NCBI GenBank assembly: GCA_003223245.1
Contig: QHYI01000132.1
Location: forward strand, 25,221-67,435
From: Acidobacteriota bacterium
Lineage (GTDB): Bacteria; Acidobacteriota; Terriglobia; Acidiferrales; UBA7541
Direction: 5' to 3'
Length of the DNA: 42,215 nt
Positions 6,892 through 42,093 of the stretch are shown here, piece after piece. A model generated the notes under the pieces. It made no database searches. It saw only the letters and a program-made list of their open reading frames with translations, and was not told the DNA's origin. The translations under genes and the position numbers were made by a program. Within the stretch, counting starts at the first letter, position 1, and each line of letters begins with the position of its first letter.

Positions 6892-8616
6892 TTACTTCCA
6901 ACCACCCTCGCCTTCCACAATCGTAATGTAGCGGTCCACAGGCAGGTTGGTGAAACGTTCCGTCTTTCCGCAGGGGTTCGGCCACTTCACTTCGAGCCAG
7001 TCAATCTTTTGTCGCTGGCCCACGCCCAGCACCATGCGCGGATCGTGCGACGATAGATAGCTTCCTCCGCCCACTTTCCATTGGTGCCGCAGCAAATCTC
7101 CCGCCTGATAAGCGACTCTTGCTCCGATCGCCTCGATGTTTGCCTTTCGTCCCACGAGTTTCAACCCAAGCCAGTGATTCTCGCGTCCTGCGTTGTTCCT
7201 CAAAAGCACAGGTGCGCCGTCATTTTGCGTCAGCAGCACGTCCAACGAACCATCGTTGTCAAAATCTCCCACCGCCATTCCTCGCCCCGCAAGTTCCTGT
7301 GAGAAAATCGGCCCGCTCTCCGCGCTCACATTCTTCCACCCTTTCCCGGTGTTTTGAAACAGCAGCAGCTTCTCGCGATACGCGACATTTTGTAACCGCT
7401 GCTCGACCATTAGATCCGGATGTCCGTTGCAGAGCAGCAGATCCACATTGCCGTCATTGTCGTAATCAAACAATTTTACTCCCCAGCCGCTCATCATTTT
7501 CGTTGTAGCCGCAATCCCCGAGCCGGGCGCGGCGTCGCTGAAGGTTTCATCCTTGCTGTTGTGATATAGCGAATACGTTTCGTGGTCCACATTCGTAACA
7601 AAAAGATCGATCCAACCATCTTGATCGTAATCCGCGGCATCCACGCCCATGCCGGAGCGCGCCAGCCCAAACGGACTCAGTCCCACTCCTGCAAGCAAAC
7701 CAATCTCCTCGAAGCGCCCCTTGCGGTTTGCGAAAAGAAAATTCGGCACCGTGTCGTTGCCCACGAACAGATCCATCCACCCGTCATTATTAATGTCCGC
7801 CGCAACCACGCCCCACGCTTTTGCTAGCGATTTTGCAATTCCCGTTTCTTTGCTCACGTCGGTGAATGTTCCATTGCCGTTGTTGCGAAACAGCCAGCAG
7901 GGCATCGGCGTGTACACGTTCGGCTTGCAGTACCAGCGCTTGTTTTCTGCTCCATAGCCGCAGTAGATGTTTTTTGCTTTGTTAAAATCTACGAACCGGC
8001 AAACAAACAAATCCAGCAAGCCATCGTTATCGTAATCGAACCACACTGCGCTCGTCGCCCATCCTGGCGCTGCCACACGCGCTTTCGCCGTGACGTCGGT
8101 AAAGGTTCCGTCCCCGTTGTTGTGGTAGAGAATGCTGTGCGGATATTGCGTCAAATAGATGTCAGGAAGGCCGTCCCCATCGTAATCGCCCACGGCCACG
8201 CCCATTCCATAGGCGTTTCCCGCAACGCCAGCCTTCTCTGTGACGTCAGCGAACGTGCCGTCGCGATTATTGCGATAAAGCGCGTTGCGCAGCGGATGCG
8301 GCGGTGTGTAGAAGTCGCACGGGCCGCTGTTGACCAAGTAAATGTCCATCCAGCCATCGTTGTCGTAATCCAGGAACGCGCAGCCTGGTCCGACGGTTTC
8401 CGGCATGTACATTTCGGGCGAGATGCCGGCGACGTGGGTCCAAGAAATGCCGCTCTTGGCGCTTGGGATTCCTTCGAAAGCGGGGAGGGAATTGGCGTGG
8501 ATGCGCGCGGCGCGAGCGCTAGATTTTGGCCCTGCGTGCCAGGCGCCAGACGGACCAAGCGCGCTTCCGAGTCCCGACGAGCTCAGGAGTTGCAACCAGC
8601 GCCGCCGTGAAATCAT
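6892..8616 (-). CDS. CRTAC1-family FG-GAP/VCBS repeat protein with ASPIC/UnbV domain
   Basis: 574 residues. The N-terminus [10 protein letters not shown] followed by a hydrophobic stretch is a Tat-type signal peptide. At least seven FG-GAP/VCBS calcium-binding repeats with the DxDxDGxxD pattern follow (for example [89 protein letters not shown]), a beta-propeller. The C-terminal 90 residues match the ASPIC/UnbV domain ([33 protein letters not shown]-like WPNPCGKTE). It is exported and probably periplasmic or surface attached. Molecular function is not established for this family. It overlaps the upstream TPR gene by 4 bp (ATGA) and is followed by a second TPR gene, so the three are co-translated and probably act together behind the TonB receptor. 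Confidence 0.92.
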
Positions 8617-9799: not shown

Positions 9800-12700
9800 T
9801 CAAAACGTAATGTTGGCGCGCAGTTCGATCACGCGTGCGCTGGTGTTGTTGTTCGTCGCGACGTTTGTGAAGTTCAGCGAACTCGCCTGGCCGAACCCAC
9901 CCGAAGTAAGGTTCGTACTTCCGTAGTAGTATGGCGGCTGGCCGGGCGTCGTAAAGTTCGGGTGGTTGAATAGGTTCAAAAATTCCGCCTGGAGGGTGAA
10001 GCGAACCTTTTCGTTGATCGGGACTGCCTTAGTCAAAGAGGTGTCGTCGTTCCAAACGTGCACGCCATAGAGCCACGGATTGATCCCAAAAACTCCGGGG
10101 GTCGTGTTTTGGCACACACCGGTGAGGACGCTGTTGCAGTTGGGCGAGGAGTTGCCTTGCAGCAGCTTTGGATTGATGACGTCGATATATGGACCCGAGG
10201 TATGGTAGACGCCGACGGCGTTCTGCAGTTGAGCCTTGGTGATGCCATTCAGCACAAACCCTCCGTCGCCGTAGTCGTTAAATGTCCCATAGCCGCCGAA
10301 TAGCTGGAAAGGTAGTCCCGTCTGCCAAGTAACAATCGTGCCGAGCGACCACCCACCAACAAGCTTGTCGACCGCGCCAGGGCGGTTGGCCAGCGCCTTG
10401 CCTTTTCCAAAAGGAAGATCAAACGTCCCACTGGCATGGACAACGTGGCGCAAATCAAAGGACGTGGGGCCGTAGCTCTGTCTCAAGTCACGAAGGGTGA
10501 ACTCCGTCACCGTACCTAACCATTGATTGTCCGGCTGCAAGCCAAGAGTGTGGCTGTAGGTATAGTTCACGTCGAACTGCATCCCATGCCATTGCTTCTG
10601 CCGGAAATCGACCTGAAGTGCGTGATAAGTGCCATACCCCGCCGCCGATGTATAGCTCTGCATCACGCCAGGGAATGAAGCGCCCAGCGGATTAACTTGA
10701 AAGAAGTTGAGAGGGTAGGTTCCAGGCGAAGTATATCCGTAGCCTTCGCACGGGCTAAGTGACGACCCGACTAGATTGCAAATGTAGGGCACAGTTCCGA
10801 ACGGATATGCCAGTTGCGATGCCAATGCACCTGCGGCCCCCTGATTCAAATCAATAATGAAGCCGCTGTTAGTAAAGTCCTGACCCGCCGTAATATTAGA
10901 CGGACAACCACCCGGCGGGCAGGCAAATGCCGCAGTAAAAATGGGCAGAGGCACCTGTCCAGGTAATCCTTGGTTGGCGAAGCTGAGATTCGAGGCGCAG
11001 CTCGCGTTAGCCATGCAAATAGCCAGGTTGGATTGCGCATTCTTGAATTCTTTCAGGAAACCGTTTTCGAAGACGTTAACTTCGTTGGGGTCAGTCTGAA
11101 TCCACTGGTGAAGGCTTCTATGTCCTAGATACCGCACCTCTAGCACGTTGTTCTGGCCCAACTGCCGCTGGATGCCAAGGTTCCACTCCTGAACATAGGG
11201 CTGATGAATGTGAGGATCGAAACCGGAAGCTCCCCAGTAGTAGCTCCATGTATAGTCGGTTTCCGGAAGGCTGGCGGCGTAAGCGGGAGGCGAATAAGTG
11301 AATTTCGTCGGATCGATGGTATCCCCAAGCGACAGTGTACCCGGAGAGAAAGTGCCGGGCGCTCCCCCATTGGCCGCGTTATACGAAAAGTTCTGGAAGA
11401 ACGCCAAGCCGTGATTGGATGCGTTGTTCCAGAAATATTGGTACGGCTCCGTGAACCGCTTGATGTCAAACCCGGTGCGTATCACCGTACTGCTTCCACC
11501 AAGCAATTTCCCCAAGATCCCTTCTGAATGGCTCGGGTTCCATGCCAGTCCAAGCGTCGGTTGGGGGCTCACGTTCCAAGGTGCATATTGGTGGCTGCTG
11601 GCAACATAGGCCGGATTCATGTCGCCAGTGAGCGTTCCGGGCCTGAATAGATTGCCGACGCCAGACGGGCCGTACATGGCGGATATCGAAGCGCCATGGT
11701 AGGCGCTGGTCAAATCGTGGTCGTCACCCGTGAAATCCCAGCGCAGCCCGTAATTAAATGTGAGATGGGGGGTGAAGCGGAAGGAATCCTGTGCGTAAAG
11801 TCCCCACATTTTTTGCAGTTCGTCGAGGTTGTACGAAGACCCAGGCGTCGTTGCGTATTTGCCGGTCTTTGGATCGTAAGGAAAGCCGCTGCCAGTGGGA
11901 CCGATACCTGAAATCCTGCCAACCAGGAGCGAATAAATATTTTCGGCTTCACCTCGATCTGCTGCTGAAGCGTTGGCGAAATAGCTGTTGAAGTCGTTTA
12001 AAGCTGGGTCGCCGGCCGCAAGGGGGCCCAGAGACATGTTTTGCATGCCATCTGGCGCGTTCCAGTAGTGGTCCTGCTCCCGATGGAAGTCAAAACCAAG
12101 CGTGACCGTGTGGCGTCCACGAATCAATGCTGCGTTATCAATGACATCGACAATGGGATAGAACGTCGAAACGGGTAAGTTGAAGGCGTTTCCGGAACAG
12201 TTACCATAGTGAGGATACCCGGTGCATATCGGCCAGCTTATAGCCGGCCGCGTAAGCCAAATGGGTTTCGCTCCGGTGCCGTAGACATACCAATTGTAGT
12301 AATACCCGCCGCGGAATTGGTTAATCAAGTTGGGCGTCACCGTCCAGTTCAAACCGATGGACGTGATGTAGTTGTTCGACTTGTTGGAGGCTACCTGATT
12401 GGCGAAAACTGAGCCTGGGAAGATCGGCGGGCTCGCATTGGGCTGGTTAATCTTGGTCTCTTGAAGCGAAAAGTCCAGGCGGAGCTTTTGTGTGAGGTTG
12501 TAGTCCACGCGTATAGCAGGGTAATAGCGCGTTGTCGGGGAAGGGTTCAGCCAGTTGACCGTCAGCAAGTTCGTGTCCGCGGACCCGTTCGGCCCCGCCG
12601 AGCCGGTCGCGCCTGCAATGGACTGATTAATTAGGGCTTGCTCGGCTGCGATTTGCGAGTTCACCGTTGCCGGGAGGCCGTTCGGCTGCGCAACCTGTGT

Positions 12701-13783
12701 GAAGAGATTTACCGTCTGTCCCGCCTGCGGTCCCCCGGTTACGCTTTGATAGTACGTATAGATGCCTTGTTGCGCTGCGGGCGACAGAACCACGTTGCTG
12801 GCAATGAAGCCACCTGGTTGTTTGGCCATTGCGAACGAGCCAAAAAAGAAAAGTTTGTCCTTTAGGATGGGTCCCCCGACGCTGCCGCCAAAATCGTTCA
12901 GGATAATGGGATTCCGACGCACAGGATTTCCAGGAGTGCTGACCGCGTTGTTAAACCAACTGTTGGCATTTAGCGCTGTATTGCGAAAATCCTCGAACAC
13001 CCTGCCGTGAAGGTCATTGCTGCCGCGGCGCGTCACAAAGTTTACTTGCATCGAGGCCTGTCCAAGACCCTGACTCAAGTCCGTTTGTTCGGTCTGTACG
13101 GTCATCTCCTGAAGATCTTCAAGCCGTGCTTCCAATCCTGGCTGTGTGTTTCCTGAAAATTTCATGCGGCTCGTCGAAGCTGATATTCCGTCGATGTTGT
13201 TTCCCTGGGCAATCACGGGAAGGCCATTCCAGGTGCCGTTGCCGGGCGTGCCGGCGAATCCAGGGGTCAGGAAGGCCAGCGAACTGATGTCCCGGCCTTG
13301 TAGGGGCAGGTCTTCAATTTGCTTCATGTCAATGGTTTGCGCGATGGCGCTCGAAGTGGTCTCGACCAGTGGCGCCGAGCTTTCGGCGACTACCACCTTC
13401 TCAACGGCCGCTCCCACTTTGAGAGTGACCTTTACGTCGGTGACGCGATTGGATTGCACAATCACGGAATCCAGCACTTCGGTTTGAAACCCGCTTTTGG
13501 AGACGGTCAGTCTATAAGTTCCCGCTGGCAAGGCGACAAAGTTGTAGCTGCCGACTTGCTGGGTTTCCGACTCCCGGATTCCGTTGGTGGCTAACTCCTG
13601 GAGTTGCAATTTGGCGCCTTGCACGGCTCCGCCGGTCGGGTCTACCACGGTGACGGTCACCGTTCCTTGCGAAGCCATCTGCGCCCAAGAGGGTGAACAG
13701 CAGGCAAGAACAAGAAGGGGAAGTGCGAGCAAGGGAAGAGAATGGCCCGGTCGGCTCAACGGGAAGAAGAACCTCTGCAACAT
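9800..13783 (-). CDS. Oar-like TonB-dependent receptor with carboxypeptidase-regulatory domain
   Basis: 1327 residues from the ATG at 13783, which has GGAGGTGA 6 nt upstream (the GTG at 13786 is a poorer choice). Signal peptide in the first 35 residues. Residues about 40-120 form a carboxypeptidase-regulatory-like beta sandwich (GTVTVTVVDPTGGAVQGAKLQL ... LPAGTYRLTVSKSGFQTE). A plug domain follows, with the ASSAIAQTIDMKQIEDLPLQGRDISSLAFLTPG region near 145-175 and VNFVTRRGSNDLHGRVFEDFRNTALNANSWFNN near 248-280. The remainder is a long beta-barrel ending in an aromatic residue (ELRANITF), the outer-membrane targeting signal. Such receptors import large substrates, often oligosaccharides, using TonB. 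No SusD lipoprotein is present; TPR and CRTAC1 genes follow instead. The promoter carries both a LacI-type and a GntR-type site, so expression is likely substrate-controlled. Confidence 0.93.
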   Translation of the reverse strand: MLQRFFFPLSRPGHSLPLLALPLLVLACCSPSWAQMASQGTVTVTVVDPTGGAVQGAKLQLQELATNGIRESETQQVGSYNFVALPAGTYRLTVSKSGFQTEVLDSVIVQSNRVTDVKVTLKVGAAVEKVVVAESSAPLVETTSSAIAQTIDMKQIEDLPLQGRDISSLAFLTPGFAGTPGNGTWNGLPVIAQGNNIDGISASTSRMKFSGNTQPGLEARLEDLQEMTVQTEQTDLSQGLGQASMQVNFVTRRGSNDLHGRVFEDFRNTALNANSWFNNAVSTPGNPVRRNPIILNDFGGSVGGPILKDKLFFFGSFAMAKQPGGFIASNVVLSPAAQQGIYTYYQSVTGGPQAGQTVNLFTQVAQPNGLPATVNSQIAAEQALINQSIAGATGSAGPNGSADTNLLTVNWLNPSPTTRYYPAIRVDYNLTQKLRLDFSLQETKINQPNASPPIFPGSVFANQVASNKSNNYITSIGLNWTVTPNLINQFRGGYYYNWYVYGTGAKPIWLTRPAISWPICTGYPHYGNCSGNAFNLPVSTFYPIVDVIDNAALIRGRHTVTLGFDFHREQDHYWNAPDGMQNMSLGPLAAGDPALNDFNSYFANASAADRGEAENIYSLLVGRISGIGPTGSGFPYDPKTGKYATTPGSSYNLDELQKMWGLYAQDSFRFTPHLTFNYGLRWDFTGDDHDLTSAYHGASISAMYGPSGVGNLFRPGTLTGDMNPAYVASSHQYAPWNVSPQPTLGLAWNPSHSEGILGKLLGGSSTVIRTGFDIKRFTEPYQYFWNNASNHGLAFFQNFSYNAANGGAPGTFSPGTLSLGDTIDPTKFTYSPPAYAASLPETDYTWSYYWGASGFDPHIHQPYVQEWNLGIQRQLGQNNVLEVRYLGHRSLHQWIQTDPNEVNVFENGFLKEFKNAQSNLAICMANASCASNLSFANQGLPGQVPLPIFTAAFACPPGGCPSNITAGQDFTNSGFIIDLNQGAAGALASQLAYPFGTVPYICNLVGSSLSPCEGYGYTSPGTYPLNFFQVNPLGASFPGVMQSYTSAAGYGTYHALQVDFRQKQWHGMQFDVNYTYSHTLGLQPDNQWLGTVTEFTLRDLRQSYGPTSFDLRHVVHASGTFDLPFGKGKALANRPGAVDKLVGGWSLGTIVTWQTGLPFQLFGGYGTFNDYGDGGFVLNGITKAQLQNAVGVYHTSGPYIDVINPKLLQGNSSPNCNSVLTGVCQNTTPGVFGINPWLYGVHVWNDDTSLTKAVPINEKVRFTLQAEFLNLFNHPNFTTPGQPPYYYGSTNLTSGGFGQASSLNFTNVATNNNTSARVIELRANITF

Positions 13784-13953
13784 CACTCACCTCCAATAAA
13801 ACACCCCAAACTTTGCGATCGGCTCAGAAATTCACCCGCTGAGATTTGCGGATCCCAGCGCAAACGAAAGAATCCCACCTGAGGTTGGCGTGGAGTTTTT
13901 CGTAGCGAACGAGAAAAACCCAGCCTCGCCGAGGGGCGAAACGATGGCGATTT

Positions 13954-13968
13954 TGTATAAGATATGCA
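13954..13968. promoter_or_regulatory. GntR-type operator on the -10 box of the TonB receptor promoter
   Basis: TGTATA-AGA-TATGCA, imperfect inverted repeat (extended form TTGTATAAGATATGCAA at 13953-13969). The same arms with a different 3-nt centre occur at 14144-14158 in front of the divergent GntR gene. Its left arm is the -10 box (TATACA on the minus strand), so binding would block the receptor promoter. Confidence 0.6.
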
Positions 13969-13981
13969 ATCCGCTTGTCAA
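13954..13981 (-). promoter_or_regulatory. Sigma-70 promoter of the TonB receptor
   Basis: On the minus strand TTGACA (13981-13976), a 16-nt spacer and TATACA (13959-13954). The -35 box is a perfect consensus match. A leader of about 165 nt precedes the ATG at 13783. It is overlapped by the GntR-type site, and a LacI-type site lies 9 bp upstream of the -35. Confidence 0.6.
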
Positions 13982-13989
13982 GTCTTTTC

Positions 13990-14003
13990 TGCAAACGCTT
14001 TCA
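13990..14003. promoter_or_regulatory. LacI-type operator variant upstream of the TonB receptor promoter
   Basis: TGCAAACGCTTTCA, CG-centred imperfect palindrome resembling the TGCAAGCGTTTGCA sites at 1219 and 20776 and the GCAAGCGCTTGC site at 15126. It lies directly upstream of the TonB receptor -35 box, so it could act by activation or by DNA looping rather than simple blocking. Confidence 0.5.
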
Positions 14004-14123
14004 TTCCTCAATTCCTTTGCAATTCGCGGCAAATGCGTATATTTTTCAGCTTTCGCGTGAAAACGCTCGCAGGAGCGGTGTAAGTGGCCTGCGGCAGTTT
14101 GCGCTGCAAAGCGCCGGGATTTG

Positions 14124-14151
14124 TTGCGAAGTGGCGAGCGTGATGTATATT
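14124..14151 (+). promoter_or_regulatory. Candidate promoter of the GntR regulator gene
   Basis: TTGCGA (14124-14129), 16-nt spacer, TATATT (14146-14151). The -10 box lies inside the GntR-type operator at 14144-14158, the arrangement expected for autorepression. The leader to the ATG at 14275 would be about 117 nt. Confidence 0.4.
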
Positions 14152-14158
14152 GTATGCA
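14144..14158. promoter_or_regulatory. GntR-type operator in front of the GntR gene
   Basis: TGTATA-TTG-TATGCA. Both arms are identical to those of the site at 13954-13968, in the same divergent intergenic region. The match of 12 fixed bases with only the 3-nt centre differing makes chance unlikely. Proposed to bind the GntR/FCD regulator encoded at 14275 (inference). Confidence 0.6.
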
Positions 14159-15124: not shown

Positions 15125-15138
15125 TGCAAGCGCTTGCG
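15125..15138. promoter_or_regulatory. LacI-type operator upstream of the exported hydrolase operon
   Basis: TGCAAGCGCTTGCG, whose inner 12 bases GCAAGCGCTTGC (15126-15137) are a perfect palindrome. A TTGACA -35 box follows at 15147-15152, though the -10 is not clear. It fits the same motif family as the sites at 1219, 13990 and 20776. Confidence 0.6.
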
Positions 15139-15207: not shown

Positions 15208-17025
15208 ATGGACGACACGCTATCTCGCCGCGAATGGCTCAAGAAAACCGTTGCCCGCGTCTCGAGCGCTGCTTTTCTTCCTTCAACTCTTTGGCATGAG
15301 CCCCTTGGCGCTCCTGCTGAATTCGCCGCGTCTCCGGCGAGCCCTCCCGCAGAGTCCTCGACGATCATTCCGCTCACGAGTACCAGCGATGTGTACATTC
15401 CGCCGCGGGGAAACAGCTTCTTCAAATTCAGCTTCGATTTTCCCGAACCGTCGGTAAGTTTTGGGGATTTTCAAATTTCATTTCGTGTCTACACTTTTGA
15501 GAATACGTACGCAGCTGACGCGAGCTTGATGACGGCGGAAACGGGTTCGGATAGCGCGCATATTCACTGCAAAGGTTTTGTGTGGGCCGGCGACCAGCAG
15601 AAAGCCCCGGGAACGCTGGAAGCGCACATCACGCGAAACGGCTCGTTTGTGGAGTGCCGGGCCACGGCGGAAATGGGCCAGTCGATCAAATCCATCGCCG
15701 CGATTGTTCGCGGCGTGCCTCGGGGAAAGGTTTCTGTAGCGGGCGGAAACTTCTTCGATCCGAAGGACAATGAACTGCTGTTCGGTTACCCGTTCGGCGG
15801 AGGCTCGCTGTTTGTTGCCGGTGGAATGGATTCTCCGGTTCTCGTCATTCAGAGTGGAGAAAAGGAGTATTTCTTTCTATCGGCGCTTGTGAAGGAAGTG
15901 CGCGCCAGCCGTTTTTATTTGCAGCCTGGAGAAAAAGGATACCGCGTCGAGCTGGTTCACGAGCGCGAAGGTTGGGCAAGAAGCAATCGCATCGAGAGCG
16001 CGGTCTGGCGCGTGGGCCGAGCGGAAAACATGGAAGGGGCGTACCGGCCGCACTTCGAGCACGTGGAGAAAGCGTTTGCCATTCCGGACTGGGAGAGCCG
16101 AACGGATGTGCCAGCGTGGTTCCGCGAGATTGCTTTAGTCGTCTCGCTGCACGGGATGCACTGGACCGGATACATTTTCAACGATTTCGTGGAGTGCTTG
16201 AAGATTTTGAAATGGGTGGCAACGCAAATTTCCGGGAAGCACGTTCTCGTCTTTTTGCCGGCGTGGGACGGTCGCTATTACTGGAACTACCCGATTTACA
16301 AGCCAGACCCGCGGCTCGGCGGAGAGGAAGGCTTTCGCATACTGATCGACAAGGGGCACGGCATGGGGTTTCATTTCATGCCTATGTTCGGCATGAACGC
16401 GGCGAACAAGCTGCTCCCTGAGTTTAAGAACTTCGCCGACGCCACGACAGAGCAAATCGACGGCGATGCTTTCAACTTGAATTGGGTGGACTGGGACAAC
16501 GACCGCCACAATGAAGGCTGGGGCGGCTACATGAACCTCGGCGTGCCTTCGTGGCGCAACTGGCTTTCGGCGCGAATTGCCGACACCCTTTCGACTTATC
16601 ACGCGGATGCGTATTTCCTCGACATCGCCGGCGGCTGGGAGAACAATAGCAAAGCGGACATGCATGAGGGAACGCGGCTGCTCGTCGAGGATCTGCGCAA
16701 GAAATTCCCCGATGTGCTGGTTTGCGGGGAAATGCCGTACGACGCGCTGATGAGCTTCATACCCCTGTTTCAGGTTTTTTCTAGTGGAGGATATCCTCCG
16801 GGCATGAAAAAATATGTGCGCGCGTTTCAGCATCTCAGCCTGCCCGCGCCAGGGCGCGGGAGCAGCGGCGTGCACGAATCCGGCTTCGGGCACTTCAACC
16901 CGAAGACGCTCAATCTGGGCAAGGAACAGATTCCCACCATTACGGTTGTGGACGATACGTTTGAAAGATACCGCGACGTGATGGCGGAAATCATCCAGAA
17001 GGCGAAAGAGCGTGTGGGACAATGA
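15208..17025 (+). CDS. Tat-exported putative glycoside hydrolase (TIM barrel, unassigned family)
   Basis: 605 residues. The N-terminus (LSRREWLKKTVARVSSAAFLP) is a Tat signal. Residues about 55-290 are beta-rich, like the N-terminal sandwich of GH31/GH36-type enzymes. Residues about 300-540 look like a TIM barrel: HVLVFLPAWDGRYYWNYP (345-362), a GMGFHFMPMFGMNAANK strand-loop (385-401), YHADAYFLDIAGG with D472 at a strand end, and DVLVCGEMPYD with E508 at the next. D472 and E508 are the best nucleophile and acid/base candidates by position. I could not place it in a numbered GH family. It has GGGGAG before the ATG, a LacI-type site upstream, and aldose epimerase and GH27 downstream, so a galactoside- or arabinoside-hydrolase role is likely. 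The substrate is inference. Confidence 0.75.
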   Translation: MDDTLSRREWLKKTVARVSSAAFLPSTLWHEPLGAPAEFAASPASPPAESSTIIPLTSTSDVYIPPRGNSFFKFSFDFPEPSVSFGDFQISFRVYTFENTYAADASLMTAETGSDSAHIHCKGFVWAGDQQKAPGTLEAHITRNGSFVECRATAEMGQSIKSIAAIVRGVPRGKVSVAGGNFFDPKDNELLFGYPFGGGSLFVAGGMDSPVLVIQSGEKEYFFLSALVKEVRASRFYLQPGEKGYRVELVHEREGWARSNRIESAVWRVGRAENMEGAYRPHFEHVEKAFAIPDWESRTDVPAWFREIALVVSLHGMHWTGYIFNDFVECLKILKWVATQISGKHVLVFLPAWDGRYYWNYPIYKPDPRLGGEEGFRILIDKGHGMGFHFMPMFGMNAANKLLPEFKNFADATTEQIDGDAFNLNWVDWDNDRHNEGWGGYMNLGVPSWRNWLSARIADTLSTYHADAYFLDIAGGWENNSKADMHEGTRLLVEDLRKKFPDVLVCGEMPYDALMSFIPLFQVFSSGGYPPGMKKYVRAFQHLSLPAPGRGSSGVHESGFGHFNPKTLNLGKEQIPTITVVDDTFERYRDVMAEIIQKAKERVGQ

Positions 17026-19527: not shown

Positions 19528-20553
19528 TCAACTTTTGGGAGCGACGCCGGTGGAATCGCGGACGACCAGTTCGGGGTCGATGACGATTTCGCGGCCGGTG
19601 TCATACTCTTCGCGGCCATTGCCAACCACGTGGTCAAAAATTACGTGGCCGATTTGCTCGCGAGGAATGTGGTTGGTGGTGAGCGAGGGGGAGCAGAATT
19701 CGGCGAGCTTGATGTTGTCAAAGCCGGTCACCGAAACATCGCGCGGGATCTGAAGTCCTTCTTCGCGCAACTCGCGCATCACGCCGACAGCCATAAAATC
19801 GTTGACGCAGAGAATGGCCGTGGGACGGAAGCCGGATTCAAGAAGTTCGCGCGCTGCCTGGCGCCCGCCATCCAGCCCATCGGGCCCAGCGAAGATCTTG
19901 GCTTCCGCGCTGGGAGAACAGCGGTGTACGGATTCCAGAAAGGTCTTGCGGCGCTCGCTGATCGGCGCAAGGGTGGAATGATGTCCCACGAAGGCCATGC
20001 GGCGATGACCCAAAGCGCTGAGGTAGCTGACGGTTTTCTTGATACCCTTGCGGTAATCCACGCGGATGTTAGTAATGTTTTTTTGCGGCGTTCCCACGTC
20101 ATAAAAGGCCGCGGGGATGCGGCTGCCCGCCACCGTCTGAATCAGATGCTCCTCCATCTCCGAAACGATGACCGCCAGGCCCGCGACGCGAAGACCGATC
20201 ATAAGTTGCACACTCGCAAGGAGCTGTTCGGAGCGATAATCGGTATTGGCGACCACAACTTCGAGGCCTTGCGCATGAGCGTCGGATTCGAGCGTGCGAT
20301 AGATGTCCAGGAAGAAAGGATTCTCCATATTCGAAACAATGATGCCGAGGATGCGGCTCTTGCCGCGCGCGAGAGAGCGGGCATGAAGATTAGGATGGTA
20401 GTTGAGTTCTTCGGCGGCCTTCAGCACGCGGGAACGCGTAGAGGTTTTGACGATTTCGAGATTATTGAGGACGCGCGAAACCGTGGACGTGGAGACGCCC
20501 GCCTTTTGGGCGACGGCATCAAGATTCATGGCCAGGGTGCGCCGTTTGCGCAT
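19528..20553 (-). CDS. LacI-family transcriptional regulator
   Basis: 341 residues from the ATG at 20553 (GAGGTG 6 nt upstream). An upstream extension is open but has no ribosome binding site. The HTH is typical (MNLDAVAQKAGVSTSTVSRVLNN, about 9-31), with the hinge HARSLARGKSRILGIIVSNMENPFF near 55-80. The periplasmic-binding-like sensor has IVSEMEEHL, HRRMAFVGHHS, AILCVNDFMAVGVMRELREEGLQIPRDVSVTGFDN (the conserved GFDN) and LTTNHIPREQIG. The ligand is unknown but is likely arabinose or a galactoside, given the neighbours. It lies divergent from the isomerase gene, whose promoter holds TGCAAGCGTTTGCA at 20776. The same or related sites occur before the araD operon, the exported hydrolase operon and the TonB receptor, so it probably acts as the local repressor. 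Confidence 0.93.
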   Translation of the reverse strand: MRKRRTLAMNLDAVAQKAGVSTSTVSRVLNNLEIVKTSTRSRVLKAAEELNYHPNLHARSLARGKSRILGIIVSNMENPFFLDIYRTLESDAHAQGLEVVVANTDYRSEQLLASVQLMIGLRVAGLAVIVSEMEEHLIQTVAGSRIPAAFYDVGTPQKNITNIRVDYRKGIKKTVSYLSALGHRRMAFVGHHSTLAPISERRKTFLESVHRCSPSAEAKIFAGPDGLDGGRQAARELLESGFRPTAILCVNDFMAVGVMRELREEGLQIPRDVSVTGFDNIKLAEFCSPSLTTNHIPREQIGHVIFDHVVGNGREEYDTGREIVIDPELVVRDSTGVAPKS

Positions 20554-29388: not shown

Positions 29389-31695
29389 ATGAAGACCCAT
29401 CCTCGCTGTTGGTTTTGCCTTGTTGCCCTGGTCATTCCTCCGTCCTGGAGTTGGGCGCAAGGCACACGCGAGGACTACCAGCGCGCCGAACAATTTCTCC
29501 CGGGAAATCTTCGTCATCGCATTTATGTTGCCGATGTGGCGCCACATTGGATCGCCAAGAAAAATCGCTTCTGGTATCACCAGGTAGGAACAAAAAGCGC
29601 GGAGTTCCTTGTCGTTGACGCAGACCAAAACAGCGCGGGCCCGGCTTTCGACCACACACGCCTAGCCGCTTCCCTTTCGAAAGCGCTGAAGCGAGAAGTT
29701 CAGGCCACAGAACTGCCCTTCGACTCTTTTGATTTTTCAGACGATGGAAAATCCGTTTCCTTTCAGATTGACGATGTGCCGTGGTTGTGCGGCCTTGGAA
29801 ATTACGAATGCAAAAAGGGGCCCGAACCTGTGGCAGGGCAGTATGAAGAAGCTTCGCCGAATAAAGAATGGGTCGTTTACGTCCAGGACCACGACCTATA
29901 CGCGCGTTACGTTGCGACGGGCCAAGTCGTGCGCCTGACACGCGACGGCGAAGCTTCCTACGACTACGCCACTCCCATTCCCTCGCTTCGGCCGATGGTC
30001 GCGCAGGGAACGAAAGACATCCGGCAGCGTCCCGCGGTGTTTTGGTCGCCCGATTCGTCCAAACTCGTGACTTACCGCATGGACACCCGCAATGCGGGAC
30101 GCTTCAGCTATCTGCAATTCGTTCCTCCAGACCAACTTCGCCCGAAGGAGTACACCGTGGTGTATCCATTGCCCGGAGAAGTTTTGCCCAAGGCCGAGCC
30201 CATTATTTTCGAAGTGCAAAGCGGCAAGCGCATCGAAGTAAAAACCGCGCCTATCGAAATGCAATTTCAAGGCGGACCAGGATTTGACTGGTACGAGGAT
30301 GGCAAGGCGTTTTCCTACGAAGCGTGGGGGCGCGGAGAAAAATCCATCGAGCTACGCGAAGTGGATGCGAGCACCGGCGAACAGCGGGTGGTGCTTCGCG
30401 AGAAGTCCGACCGCTACGTTGATCCGGGAGAAACGCATTTCCGCATTTTGCACGAAACGGGGGACGTGCTTTGGACTTCCGAGCGGGATGGCTGGAACCA
30501 TCTTTATCTGTCGAACCTCAAGACCGGCGAATTGCGCGGCCAATTGACGCAGGGGCCTTGGGCGGTACGGCAGATTGTCGAGGTGGATGAGAAGGCGCGC
30601 CGCGTCTATTTTCTGGCAAACGGCCGGGAGAAAGACGAAGATCCCTACCAGACGCACCTCTATGTGGTCGGCTTTGGTGGCCAAGGTCTTGCGCTGCTCA
30701 CGCCGGAAAACGCCAATCACAACGTAAGCCTTTCTCCAGATCGCGCTTATTTCGTGGACAATTTCTCGCGACCCGACCTTCCCGCCGTCTCCGTGCTCAA
30801 GCGCGCGAAGGATGGCTCGCAGGTCCGCACCTTGGAGCAAACCGATACCAAAGAGTTGGTGCAAGCTGGTTGGAAACCGCCACAGCCGTTTCGCGGCAAA
30901 GCGAAGGATGGAACTACGGATTTGTACGGGCTGATCTGGAAGCCTTCGAACTTCGATGCCTCGAAGAAATATCCCATCGTCGAGATGGTCTACACCGGCC
31001 CGCAGGCTTTCTTTGTGCCAAAGACTTTTAGCGCTGCTTTGCGCAATCCCGAGCAGCAAATCGCAGAACTCGGATTCATCGGCGTCATGGTCGACGGCCG
31101 CGGTACGACCGGCCGATCGCGGGCGTTCCGCGAATTCTCCTATCACAATTTAGGCGGCGCGTTTGAGGATCACGTCGAGATGATCAAGCAGATGGCTGCG
31201 AAGTTCTCCTACATGGACGTGGACCGCGTCGGCATCTATGGCACATCGGCCGGCGGCTACGGCTCGACGCACGCCATCCTGCAATTTGCGGATTTCTACA
31301 AGGTTTGCGTGTCTATTTCTGGCGACCATGACGCGCGGCTCGACAAAGCCTGGTGGAATGAGCTTTACCAAGGTTATCCGGTAGGGCCGGACTACGCCGA
31401 ACAATCCAACATTACGATGGCGGATCACCTAAAAGGCCACCTGCTCATCGAGCATGGCGACATCGATGACAACGTGCACGTTGTTGAAACCATGCGTTTG
31501 ACGGACGCGTTGATCAAAGCGAACAAGAATTTCGATCAACTCATCGTTCCGAACATGTATCACGGCGAAGGCGGTAATCCCTACCTGATCCGTCGCCGCT
31601 GGGATTATTTCGTTCAGTATCTTTTAGGTGTGAATCCGCCGGCGGACTTCGCCATCCATGAGGAGCGGGAAAATGCTCCTCCGCGAGCCCGCTGA
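29389..31695 (+). CDS. S9B-family dipeptidyl peptidase IV-like serine peptidase
   Basis: 768 residues. The start is supported by a strong TAAGGAGGAG about 9 nt before the ATG. Sec signal peptide in the first 24 residues (CLVALVIPPSWSWAQ). The N-terminal propeller runs to about 500. The alpha/beta hydrolase domain follows with the triad S620 in YGTSAGGYGS, D693 in HGDIDDNVH and H725 in MYHGEGG. In human DPP-IV the Asp and His occupy the same motif positions. These exopeptidases trim dipeptides or short peptides outside the cytoplasm. Its place between two BNR propeller proteins and downstream of arabinofuranosidases would fit breakdown of hydroxyproline-rich glycoproteins (extensin, AGP), but that link is inference. 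A hairpin lies directly after the stop. Confidence 0.92.
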   Translation: MKTHPRCWFCLVALVIPPSWSWAQGTREDYQRAEQFLPGNLRHRIYVADVAPHWIAKKNRFWYHQVGTKSAEFLVVDADQNSAGPAFDHTRLAASLSKALKREVQATELPFDSFDFSDDGKSVSFQIDDVPWLCGLGNYECKKGPEPVAGQYEEASPNKEWVVYVQDHDLYARYVATGQVVRLTRDGEASYDYATPIPSLRPMVAQGTKDIRQRPAVFWSPDSSKLVTYRMDTRNAGRFSYLQFVPPDQLRPKEYTVVYPLPGEVLPKAEPIIFEVQSGKRIEVKTAPIEMQFQGGPGFDWYEDGKAFSYEAWGRGEKSIELREVDASTGEQRVVLREKSDRYVDPGETHFRILHETGDVLWTSERDGWNHLYLSNLKTGELRGQLTQGPWAVRQIVEVDEKARRVYFLANGREKDEDPYQTHLYVVGFGGQGLALLTPENANHNVSLSPDRAYFVDNFSRPDLPAVSVLKRAKDGSQVRTLEQTDTKELVQAGWKPPQPFRGKAKDGTTDLYGLIWKPSNFDASKKYPIVEMVYTGPQAFFVPKTFSAALRNPEQQIAELGFIGVMVDGRGTTGRSRAFREFSYHNLGGAFEDHVEMIKQMAAKFSYMDVDRVGIYGTSAGGYGSTHAILQFADFYKVCVSISGDHDARLDKAWWNELYQGYPVGPDYAEQSNITMADHLKGHLLIEHGDIDDNVHVVETMRLTDALIKANKNFDQLIVPNMYHGEGGNPYLIRRRWDYFVQYLLGVNPPADFAIHEERENAPPRAR

Positions 31696-41974: not shown

Positions 41975-42093
41975 GGGAGTCCTCGAAGATTTCTGCTGGT
42001 TTCTATCTTATATGGAATAGCCTTTGCGCGCGAATGGAGGCCTGTTGCAAATAGCTCTATAGATCTGTGCATAAATAATGCAATGAAGTAGCA

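Follow-up and report, generated by a model that had tools for sequence, protein, structure and literature searches.

HypR, a regulator of the GntR family, governs hydroxyproline use in S. meliloti, other Proteobacteria and Streptomyces (PMC5343134, PMC6608401). In the portions of these papers cited here, HypR regulons also include proline oxidation and collagenases and, in several Alteromonadales, a putative TonB-dependent transporter (PMC5343134), HypR motifs are taxon-specific (PMC5343134), and the HypR site of S. coelicolor covers its own -10 (PMC6608401). The cited part of PMC4494728 gives TKGT-N2-ACMA as the operator form for HypR.

The window studied here, the whole 42-kb stretch of DNA that we analyzed, belongs to a genome of 6,311,796 bases (about 6.3 Mb; G000) from what looks like a soil acidobacterium. 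It contains the following genes.

9800-13786, minus strand: Oar/TonB-receptor-like outer-membrane gene, from matches to PF25183 and PF13620
14275-15036, plus strand: GntR-family FCD regulator gene, read as HypR-like from PF00392, PF07729 and the neighbourhoods of its homologues
15208-17025, plus strand: gene for a 605-aa protein with, judged by eye, a twin-arginine-like N terminus
19528-20550, minus strand: LacI-family regulator gene; the open reading frame extends to 20832, and homologues align over about the last 340 aa
22244-24211, plus strand: GH127-family gene, beta-L-arabinofuranosidase-like; the nearest solved structures include beta-L-arabinofuranosidases
29389-31695, plus strand: gene like prolyl dipeptidyl peptidase IV (DPP IV); its homologues in two related genomes (G031, G034) are preceded by a GntR-type site

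The product of the first gene, presumably an Oar-like TonB receptor, combines a CarboxypepD_reg domain with an outer-membrane barrel, and its start is read as ATG at 13783, with GGAGG just upstream, or as GTG at 13786. Matches of 61.9 bits to PF00392 and 83.3 bits to PF07729, both over their cut-offs, place the divergent regulator in the FCD (FadR) subfamily of the GntR family; three histidines, in the stretches FH[SA], H[RQ] and HI, putative metal ligands, are invariant across 12 aligned homologues. The 605-aa protein that follows has no sequence match in Pfam, NCBIfam or PDB, and its AlphaFold model, built from two sequences, is unusable (pLDDT 33). With a ribulokinase, an isomerase with a fucose-isomerase C-terminal domain, GH27, GH127, GH51, GalK, GalT and DPP IV, the gene content of the locus points to the release and use of arabinose and galactose, plus a prolyl dipeptidyl peptidase. 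A search of Rfam returned nothing at gathering thresholds. We also observed TGCATAAATAATGCA near the ends of three contigs (window positions 42068-42082, G000:C91:104-118 and G000:C136:107-121), possibly an assembly-breaking repeat.

The intergenic region between receptor and regulator genes, together with three further positions in the locus, holds these DNA elements.

13954-13968, no strand assigned: candidate GntR/FCD operator 1 (site 1), TGTATAAGATATGCA; its minus-strand TATACA (13954-13959) is the receptor -10
13976-13981, minus strand: receptor -35, TTGACA, 16 bp from TATACA; TTGACA is found in all nine receptor promoters compared
13990-14003, no strand assigned: LacI-type site A, TGAAAGCGTTTGCA when read in the receptor direction; 8 bp separate it from the receptor -35 downstream
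14016-14043, plus strand: promoter-like TTTGCA-16-TATATT that points to the regulator and is flanked by LacI sites A and B, from a consensus scan
14058-14071, plus strand: LacI-type site B, TGAAAACGCTCGCA, just downstream of the 14016-14043 element
14124-14151, plus strand: weak promoter-like TTGCGA-16-TATATT towards the regulator, from the consensus scan, with its -10 inside operator 2
14144-14158, no strand assigned: candidate GntR/FCD operator 2 (site 2), TGTATATTGTATGCA, with the core GTATATTGTATGC
15125-15138, no strand assigned: LacI-type near-palindrome TGCAAGCGCTTGCG, before the next gene; TGCAAGCGCTTGCA in L042, L043 and L046
20776-20789, no strand assigned: perfect LacI-type palindrome TGCAAACGCTTGCA between the LacI and sugar isomerase genes, its position kept in relatives
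1219-1232, no strand assigned: perfect LacI-type palindrome upstream of aldolase II, symporter and ribulokinase genes; also in L033

A first-pass annotation had noted TGTATA-N3-TATGCA twice between the divergent genes, and both 15-mers are exact at 13954-13968 and 14144-14158. Across the 6,311,796 bases of the genome, the palindrome TGYATANNNTATRCA occurs at these two places only (backwards control 0), as does its relaxed form TGNATANNNTATNCA, that is TGNATA-N3-TATNCA (backwards control 1). Loose matches to the 15-mers, with up to three mismatches, number 12 within the 42-kb window, a chance level given a shuffle mean of 9.15, so the evidence rests on the exact palindromes and their conservation. 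As the two sites differ in their centres, AGA in the class of site 1 and TTG in that of site 2, we infer rather than observe that one protein would serve both. A direct repeat of the NanR-like kind (TGTATAT TGTATGC) was rejected as the operator form; it suits site 2 and fails site 1.

The receptor promoter, TTGACA-16-TATACA, was read by eye on the minus strand (-35 at 13976-13981, -10 at 13954-13959) and bears out the earlier placement of site 1 on the receptor -10. With TATACA inside site 1, the sequence has the makings of a sigma-70 promoter with an operator over its -10; this promoter is absent from our consensus scan because the scan requires T as the last -10 base. The companion placement of site 2 on the regulator's -10 held in part: a TATATT does overlap site 2, but the promoter is weakly defined, one of two 9/12 scan matches. 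The plus-strand element at 14016-14043, which the first-pass annotation had overlooked together with LacI site B, keeps TTTGCA in four of five aligned loci and TATATT in four of five, with varying spacings. Among the 36 operator-like sites gathered from this and related loci, 17 have TTGAC[AG] 15-17 bp before a TATACA or TACAAT inside the operator, and 19 lack TTGAC at that distance; TTGAC stood at such a distance for 3.6% of random positions in the same loci, coding sequence included. Given this difference, placement on the -10 is frequent in the regulon and not peculiar to the window. A terminator-like hairpin lies on the minus strand at 13942-13919, directly after the expected receptor start; attenuation in the receptor leader was rejected, as the hairpin's T-run, judged by eye, is missing from the other four loci.

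Operators of the LacI/CcpA type follow the consensus TGNAANCGNTNNCA. Seven strand matches to it fall at four places in the window (1219, 13990, 14058 and 20776), where 0.50 would be expected, and with a LacI gene nearby these palindromes would qualify as candidate LacI-family operators. Site A matches on both strands and site B on one. A LacI-type site near the receptor -35 had been proposed before; it is present at 13990-14003, but the gap is 8 bases, not 9. Genome-wide, eight of 11 matches to the consensus lie outside this locus, and the genome holds nine LacI-family matches; the LacI partner named here is assigned by proximity. Elsewhere in the same genome, the homologue of proline dehydrogenase (G000:C232, L160 7717-8694; 75% identical to that of G028, on a contig other than the window's) has a perfect LacI-type palindrome, TGCAAGCGCTTGCA, at 7722-7735, between a TAGAAT box and the likely ATG, and no GntR-type site was found in the stretch scanned there. 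Judged from its sequence, this palindrome is a further link between sugar and imino acid. Upstream LacI-type sites also accompany other receptor genes and a GH127-like gene (L159 in G000:C196, L161 in G000:C45), suggesting a wider LacI-type regulon or several paralogues.

Close homologues of the regulator occur in 13 further genomes of the genus, with 75-92% identity over the matched part; the G018 copy is a C-terminal piece at a contig edge and the G030 copy is in two pieces. The related loci come mostly from metagenome-assembled genomes (MAGs) of close relatives, which are not independent, and some carry truncations or frameshifts (G024, G030). Conservation in orthologous regions, proposed as a check by the first-pass annotation, extends to both sites in all four further loci with the divergent receptor/GntR arrangement (G024, whose receptor is an N-terminal remnant only, G030 and two in G032). 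There, site 1 is kept as TGTATAAGATAT[GC]CA and site 2 in its core GTATATTGTATGC (4/4 each), the order site 1, LacI A, LacI B, site 2 is unchanged, and LacI A carries a single mismatch in G030. Site B reads TGAAA[AT]CGCT in five of five loci, and A and B lie 68-69 bp apart in the four where both fit the consensus. The alignment is good over 13950-14071 and poor between LacI B and site 2, so that site 2 stands out as a footprint. Its core lies upstream of the GntR gene in 10 loci from nine genomes, the window counted, including five genomes (G028, G017, G015, G027, G011) in which the GntR gene is divergent from a Vps10-like gene instead; a -10 of that gene (TTGACG-17-TATACA) sits inside site 2.

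The presence of the motif tracks the regulator across the genus. GYATATTGTATRC was found in 12 of the 14 genus genomes with a GntR orthologue, the misses being G012 and G018 (counted among the 14 although its gene is cut at a contig edge), and in none of the 22 without (Fisher p 7e-8); in the rest of the order it occurs in five of 59 genomes, a background rate. G029 has two 13-mers that are not upstream of its GntR gene, one being at a neighbouring receptor gene and one inside an open reading frame. The relaxed TGNATANNNTATNCA is less specific, with 38 places in the 14 orthologue genomes (control 8) and 15 in the 22 without (control 3); our inspection covered 30 of the 38 places in orthologue genomes, three of which (G017:C259 and two in G034) had no assigned target. 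Some individual loci deserve mention. In L033 (G024) the receptor match covers about 152 aa, GH127 and GH51 are present only in pieces, the 605-aa gene was not found in this MAG, and the four-site promoter region is intact; the losses may be real deletions or assembly collapse. L164 (G008) is a sugar locus with the LacI gene and its site, in which the ribulokinase is followed directly by the 605-aa gene and the GntR gene, receptor and GntR-type sites are absent, making it a natural comparison genome. In the Vps10-type loci the GntR gene is followed directly by a gene for a conserved protein, about 740-820 aa long and unmatched in Pfam (L088 4545-6758, L091 8577-11030, L084 7748-10129); it is unrelated to the 605-aa orphan that takes this place in the window.

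A palindromic expectation-maximization (EM) model recovered the motif from regions chosen by gene. With 18 regions taken upstream of a GntR or racemase-like gene, it returned TGtATA-tna-TATaCA at a log-likelihood ratio (LLR) of 118.8, where the highest of 15 Markov controls reached 36.3; a site of at least 15 bits is present in 15 of the 18, and none was found in G012, G029 or the second GntR copy of G031. A larger set of 24 regions gave TGtATA-taa-TATaCA with matches in 23. As eight of these 24 had been chosen for holding the motif, and the L044 region, also among the 18, was cut by hand around its site, the run on 18 regions is the fairer test, though not a perfect one. Nine regions, one per context, reached 46.0 against 31.5, with a site in six. 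Comparing palindrome widths, a 10-bp FadR-type core (TTGtATaCAA, LLR 38.9) and a 20-bp palindrome (112.8) were rejected in favour of the 15-bp (118.8) and 17-bp (128.0) forms with their higher LLR; for sites of the TTG class the motif register is ambiguous.

The gene company of the regulator's relatives makes it look HypR-like, as far as sequence can tell. In G031, a copy of the motif stands at the head of an operon whose products are, in order, a protein with 4-hydroxyproline epimerase as its top NCBIfam model (425.8 bits, slightly short of the 442 cut-off), an FAD oxidoreductase, a pyridine nucleotide oxidoreductase, a DapA-like enzyme, an aldehyde dehydrogenase and the GntR regulator; the company is similar in G034 and, in part, in L044. 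G049 and G059 have a 55% identical GntR homologue beside a racemase-family gene (75-79% identical to that of the window genome) with the motif upstream, and in G028, G017 and G027 the motif precedes a proline dehydrogenase gene. Overall, motif sites in relatives lie at the promoters of FCD regulator, hydroxyproline epimerase, proline dehydrogenase, DPP IV, Vps10-like and receptor genes. We extended the comparison to 12 homologues from a plasmid collection, drawn from 25 listed of 2244 records in favour of different genera (41-48% identity, one 36%). Racemase/epimerase genes, by annotation or tblastn, accompany six of them (two in Ruegeria and one each in Thalassospira, R. leguminosarum, Vibrio and Gemmatirosa), and eight of the 12 loci carry the motif, with 19 matches at up to one mismatch, five of them exact, where Markov controls gave about 1.3. 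An exact site in Vibrio and one of the Gemmatirosa sites may be coding, since each falls within the tblastn match of a DapA-like gene, near its start. At the same threshold no motif was found in the plasmid loci of Ensifer, R. rhizogenes, R. leguminosarum and Azospirillum.

In the window locus itself, hydroxyproline and proline catabolism is limited to the DPP IV gene. The genome has no clear 4-hydroxyproline epimerase; its one strong PF05544 gene, racemase-like, scores best as trans-3-hydroxyproline dehydratase, under that model's cut-off, and has no GntR-type site near it. Neither window site matches TKGT-N2-ACMA in the form given in the cited part of PMC4494728, so we describe the regulator as working like HypR and not as being HypR. 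Some relatives' sites (G034, Thalassospira) contain TTGTATACAA.

The first-pass annotation had further suggested that repressors of two families jointly gate the receptor promoter. Comparison supports joint gating in that, among the nine receptor promoters encountered, eight have a LacI-type site 8 bp upstream of TTGACA, that of G030 with one consensus mismatch, and all nine have a GntR-type site, at one of two positions. Both site types are thus conserved, but a LacI site upstream of the -35 fits activation too. Receptor homologues of G028, G017 and G027 (49-53% identity) lie away from the GntR gene, followed in G028 and G017 by TPR/ASPIC genes, as in the window, while the G027 contig ends; in all three, exactly 8 bp separate the LacI palindrome from TTGACA downstream, and between promoter and start codon stands a GntR-type site, TGTATAATTTATACA. 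The exception for LacI is G034, where TTGACA-15-TATACA has a GntR-type site on its -10 and, by eye, a LacI-like palindrome downstream only. On this comparison, dual control of the receptor promoter looks conserved. A second kind of receptor gene (L041, L087, L196, L197) has its site inside the longest open reading frame, with provisional start codons. A second recurrent promoter with sites for two regulators pairs GntR-type sites with LacI-type TTGCAAGCGCTTRC (L088 3292, L091 6882, L085 16247); these lie in the DUF5695/proline dehydrogenase gap of G028, in the ASPIC/proline dehydrogenase gap of G017 and before DUF5695 in G031.

The sites, their positions, their conservation and the gene neighbourhoods are there to be read in the DNA. 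On this basis we consider it likely that the 15-mers of the form TGNATA-N3-TATNCA are operators of the adjacent FCD-type GntR regulator, which most likely works in a HypR-like manner, that a LacI-family regulator acts with it at the receptor promoter, and that the locus serves uptake of plant hydroxyproline-rich glycoproteins. Occupation of site 1 by the regulator would mask the divergent receptor promoter's -10 and keep RNA polymerase off, and occupation of site 2 would hold down the regulator's own gene. The LacI-family regulator, most likely the product of 19528-20550, would act on the receptor promoter from 8 bp upstream of the -35, and sites A and B would bracket the divergent promoter towards the regulator operon. 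The receptor gene would then read a sugar signal, in keeping with the arabinose and galactose genes of the locus, and an imino-acid or peptide signal, which together would fit uptake of extensins and arabinogalactan proteins. Binding, repression, effectors and substrate are all what we infer in this model. More tentatively, the promoter might work as a lock with two keys, in which both regulators must change state and the importer is made only on sensing both an imino-acid backbone and its arabinose/galactose decoration, a logic that would be kept in other species while the GntR site moved from the -10 to a downstream position.

Other readings of the sites were weighed against operators shared by one GntR regulator. 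That both sequences are AT-rich -10 promoter elements and no operators seems very improbable. They do contain TATACA, TATATT or TACAAT, 17 of the 36 gathered sites stand at -10 spacing from TTGAC[AG], and conservation is expected of a promoter element; but the 15-bp dyad symmetry, the absence from the rest of the genome, the 12/14 versus 0/22 association with the GntR gene, the 19 sites without TTGAC at that distance and the same motif near regulator homologues in Proteobacteria and Gemmatimonadota all argue for an operator. We also think it unlikely, though less so, that only site 2 belongs to the neighbouring regulator, while site 1 binds a different protein or owes its conservation mainly to its place at the receptor -10. 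Such a division would account for the differing centres (AGA and TTG), for the TATCCA of site 1 in three of four related loci, for class-1-like sites beside LacI-type sites near DUF5695, ASPIC and proline dehydrogenase genes (G028, G017, G031), and for the one GTATAAGATATGC in G008, which lacks a close GntR orthologue. It fits poorly with class-1 sites GTATAAAATATCC and GCATAATATATCC upstream of the racemase-like gene next to the 55% GntR homologue (G059, G049), with GTATATTGTATCC in L044, which combines both classes, and with a single palindromic model that fits both.

The part of the LacI regulator is more evenly poised, and it may well be, at somewhat less than even likelihood, that it does not repress the receptor gene, and instead activates it from upstream or chiefly controls the 14016-14043 promoter through A and B. 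Activation by a LacI-family protein from upstream sites is known for CcpA, and here no part of site A reaches the -35, from which it is set off upstream by a constant 8 bp, while A and B flank TTTGCA-16-TATATT with B just past its expected start. Weighing against this, the 8-bp spacing persists at the receptor genes of G028, G017 and G027, which are not beside the GntR gene; site A therefore seems to serve the receptor promoter, and this spacing would suit action of either sign. As to the signal, many FCD proteins sense sugar acids or other carboxylates. We regard it as rather improbable that this holds for the GntR regulator here, with the hydroxyproline link a family relic and pectin a candidate substrate. 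The window genome's want of a clear 4-hydroxyproline epimerase, the regulator's place in a sugar locus and the pectin-type model, below its cut-off, that best matches GH127 would suit such a reading, but the same DNA motif stays with hydroxyproline and proline genes in relatives, the window locus retains its DPP IV gene, and the genome retains a proline dehydrogenase with a LacI-type site.

Hydroxyproline abounds in extensins and arabinogalactan proteins, which bear arabinose and galactose. The enzyme, sugar and peptidase content of the locus and its two regulators would fit plant hydroxyproline-rich glycoproteins as substrate. Enzymes of the GH127 family also act on pectin, and pectin is a possible substrate here because the best NCBIfam model for the window protein is aceric acid hydrolase, far under its cut-off (85 bits against 950). 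Acidobacteria probably have numerous Oar-like receptors whose substrates are unknown; a conserved operator pair that would tie one of them to hydroxyproline-type and sugar regulators gives a concrete guess, plant extensins or arabinogalactan proteins. If our reading is correct, HypR-like regulons would reach beyond Proteobacteria and Streptomyces into Acidobacteria and probably also Gemmatimonadota, and the receptor promoter would offer a natural example in which regulators of two families combine, at a single promoter, the signals from both chemical halves of a nutrient. Import of plant cell-wall glycoproteins may thus wait until the cell has sensed both of their halves.

HypR regulons are already known, and it is the coupling to a sugar regulator that looks new; the same two-regulator arrangement was not found among the matches listed in open-licence papers. 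Operators of the LacI/CcpA type resemble sites A and B and the perfect palindromes elsewhere in the locus, but site A leaves the promoter core free, being placed upstream of the -35. FadR-subfamily operators, in the cited part of PMC4494728, are likewise A/T-rich palindromes bound by dimers in divergent operons, but are built from TKGT and ACMA boxes with 2-3 nt between GT and AC (2 for HypR), unlike the window sites. The Proteobacterial HypR regulons, exemplified by S. meliloti, are mostly autoregulated by a GntR-family protein and comprise hypE/O/D/H genes with, in some lineages, putA, collagenases and a putative TonB-dependent transporter, as the cited part of PMC5343134 describes them. Relatives of the window regulator keep similar gene company, whereas the window regulator itself lies in a sugar locus without hyp genes, has an operator best written TGNATA-N3-TATNCA, and would share its receptor promoter with a LacI-type site. 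HypR of S. coelicolor (PMC6608401) is also an FCD-type GntR repressor, with a regulon that joins hydroxyproline use to a protein-degrading enzyme; it differs in its own motif, CTNTGC(A/C)ATGTCAC, in collagen as substrate, and in that the cited part notes no LacI partner. Finally, the beta-L-arabinofuranosidase systems of Bifidobacterium, as covered by the cited parts of PMC10850190 and PMC7263609, share an enzyme of the beta-L-arabinofuranosidase family and a presumed substrate in plant hydroxyproline-rich glycoproteins, but use an ABC transporter where the window has an outer-membrane receptor, a prolyl peptidase and a HypR-like regulator.
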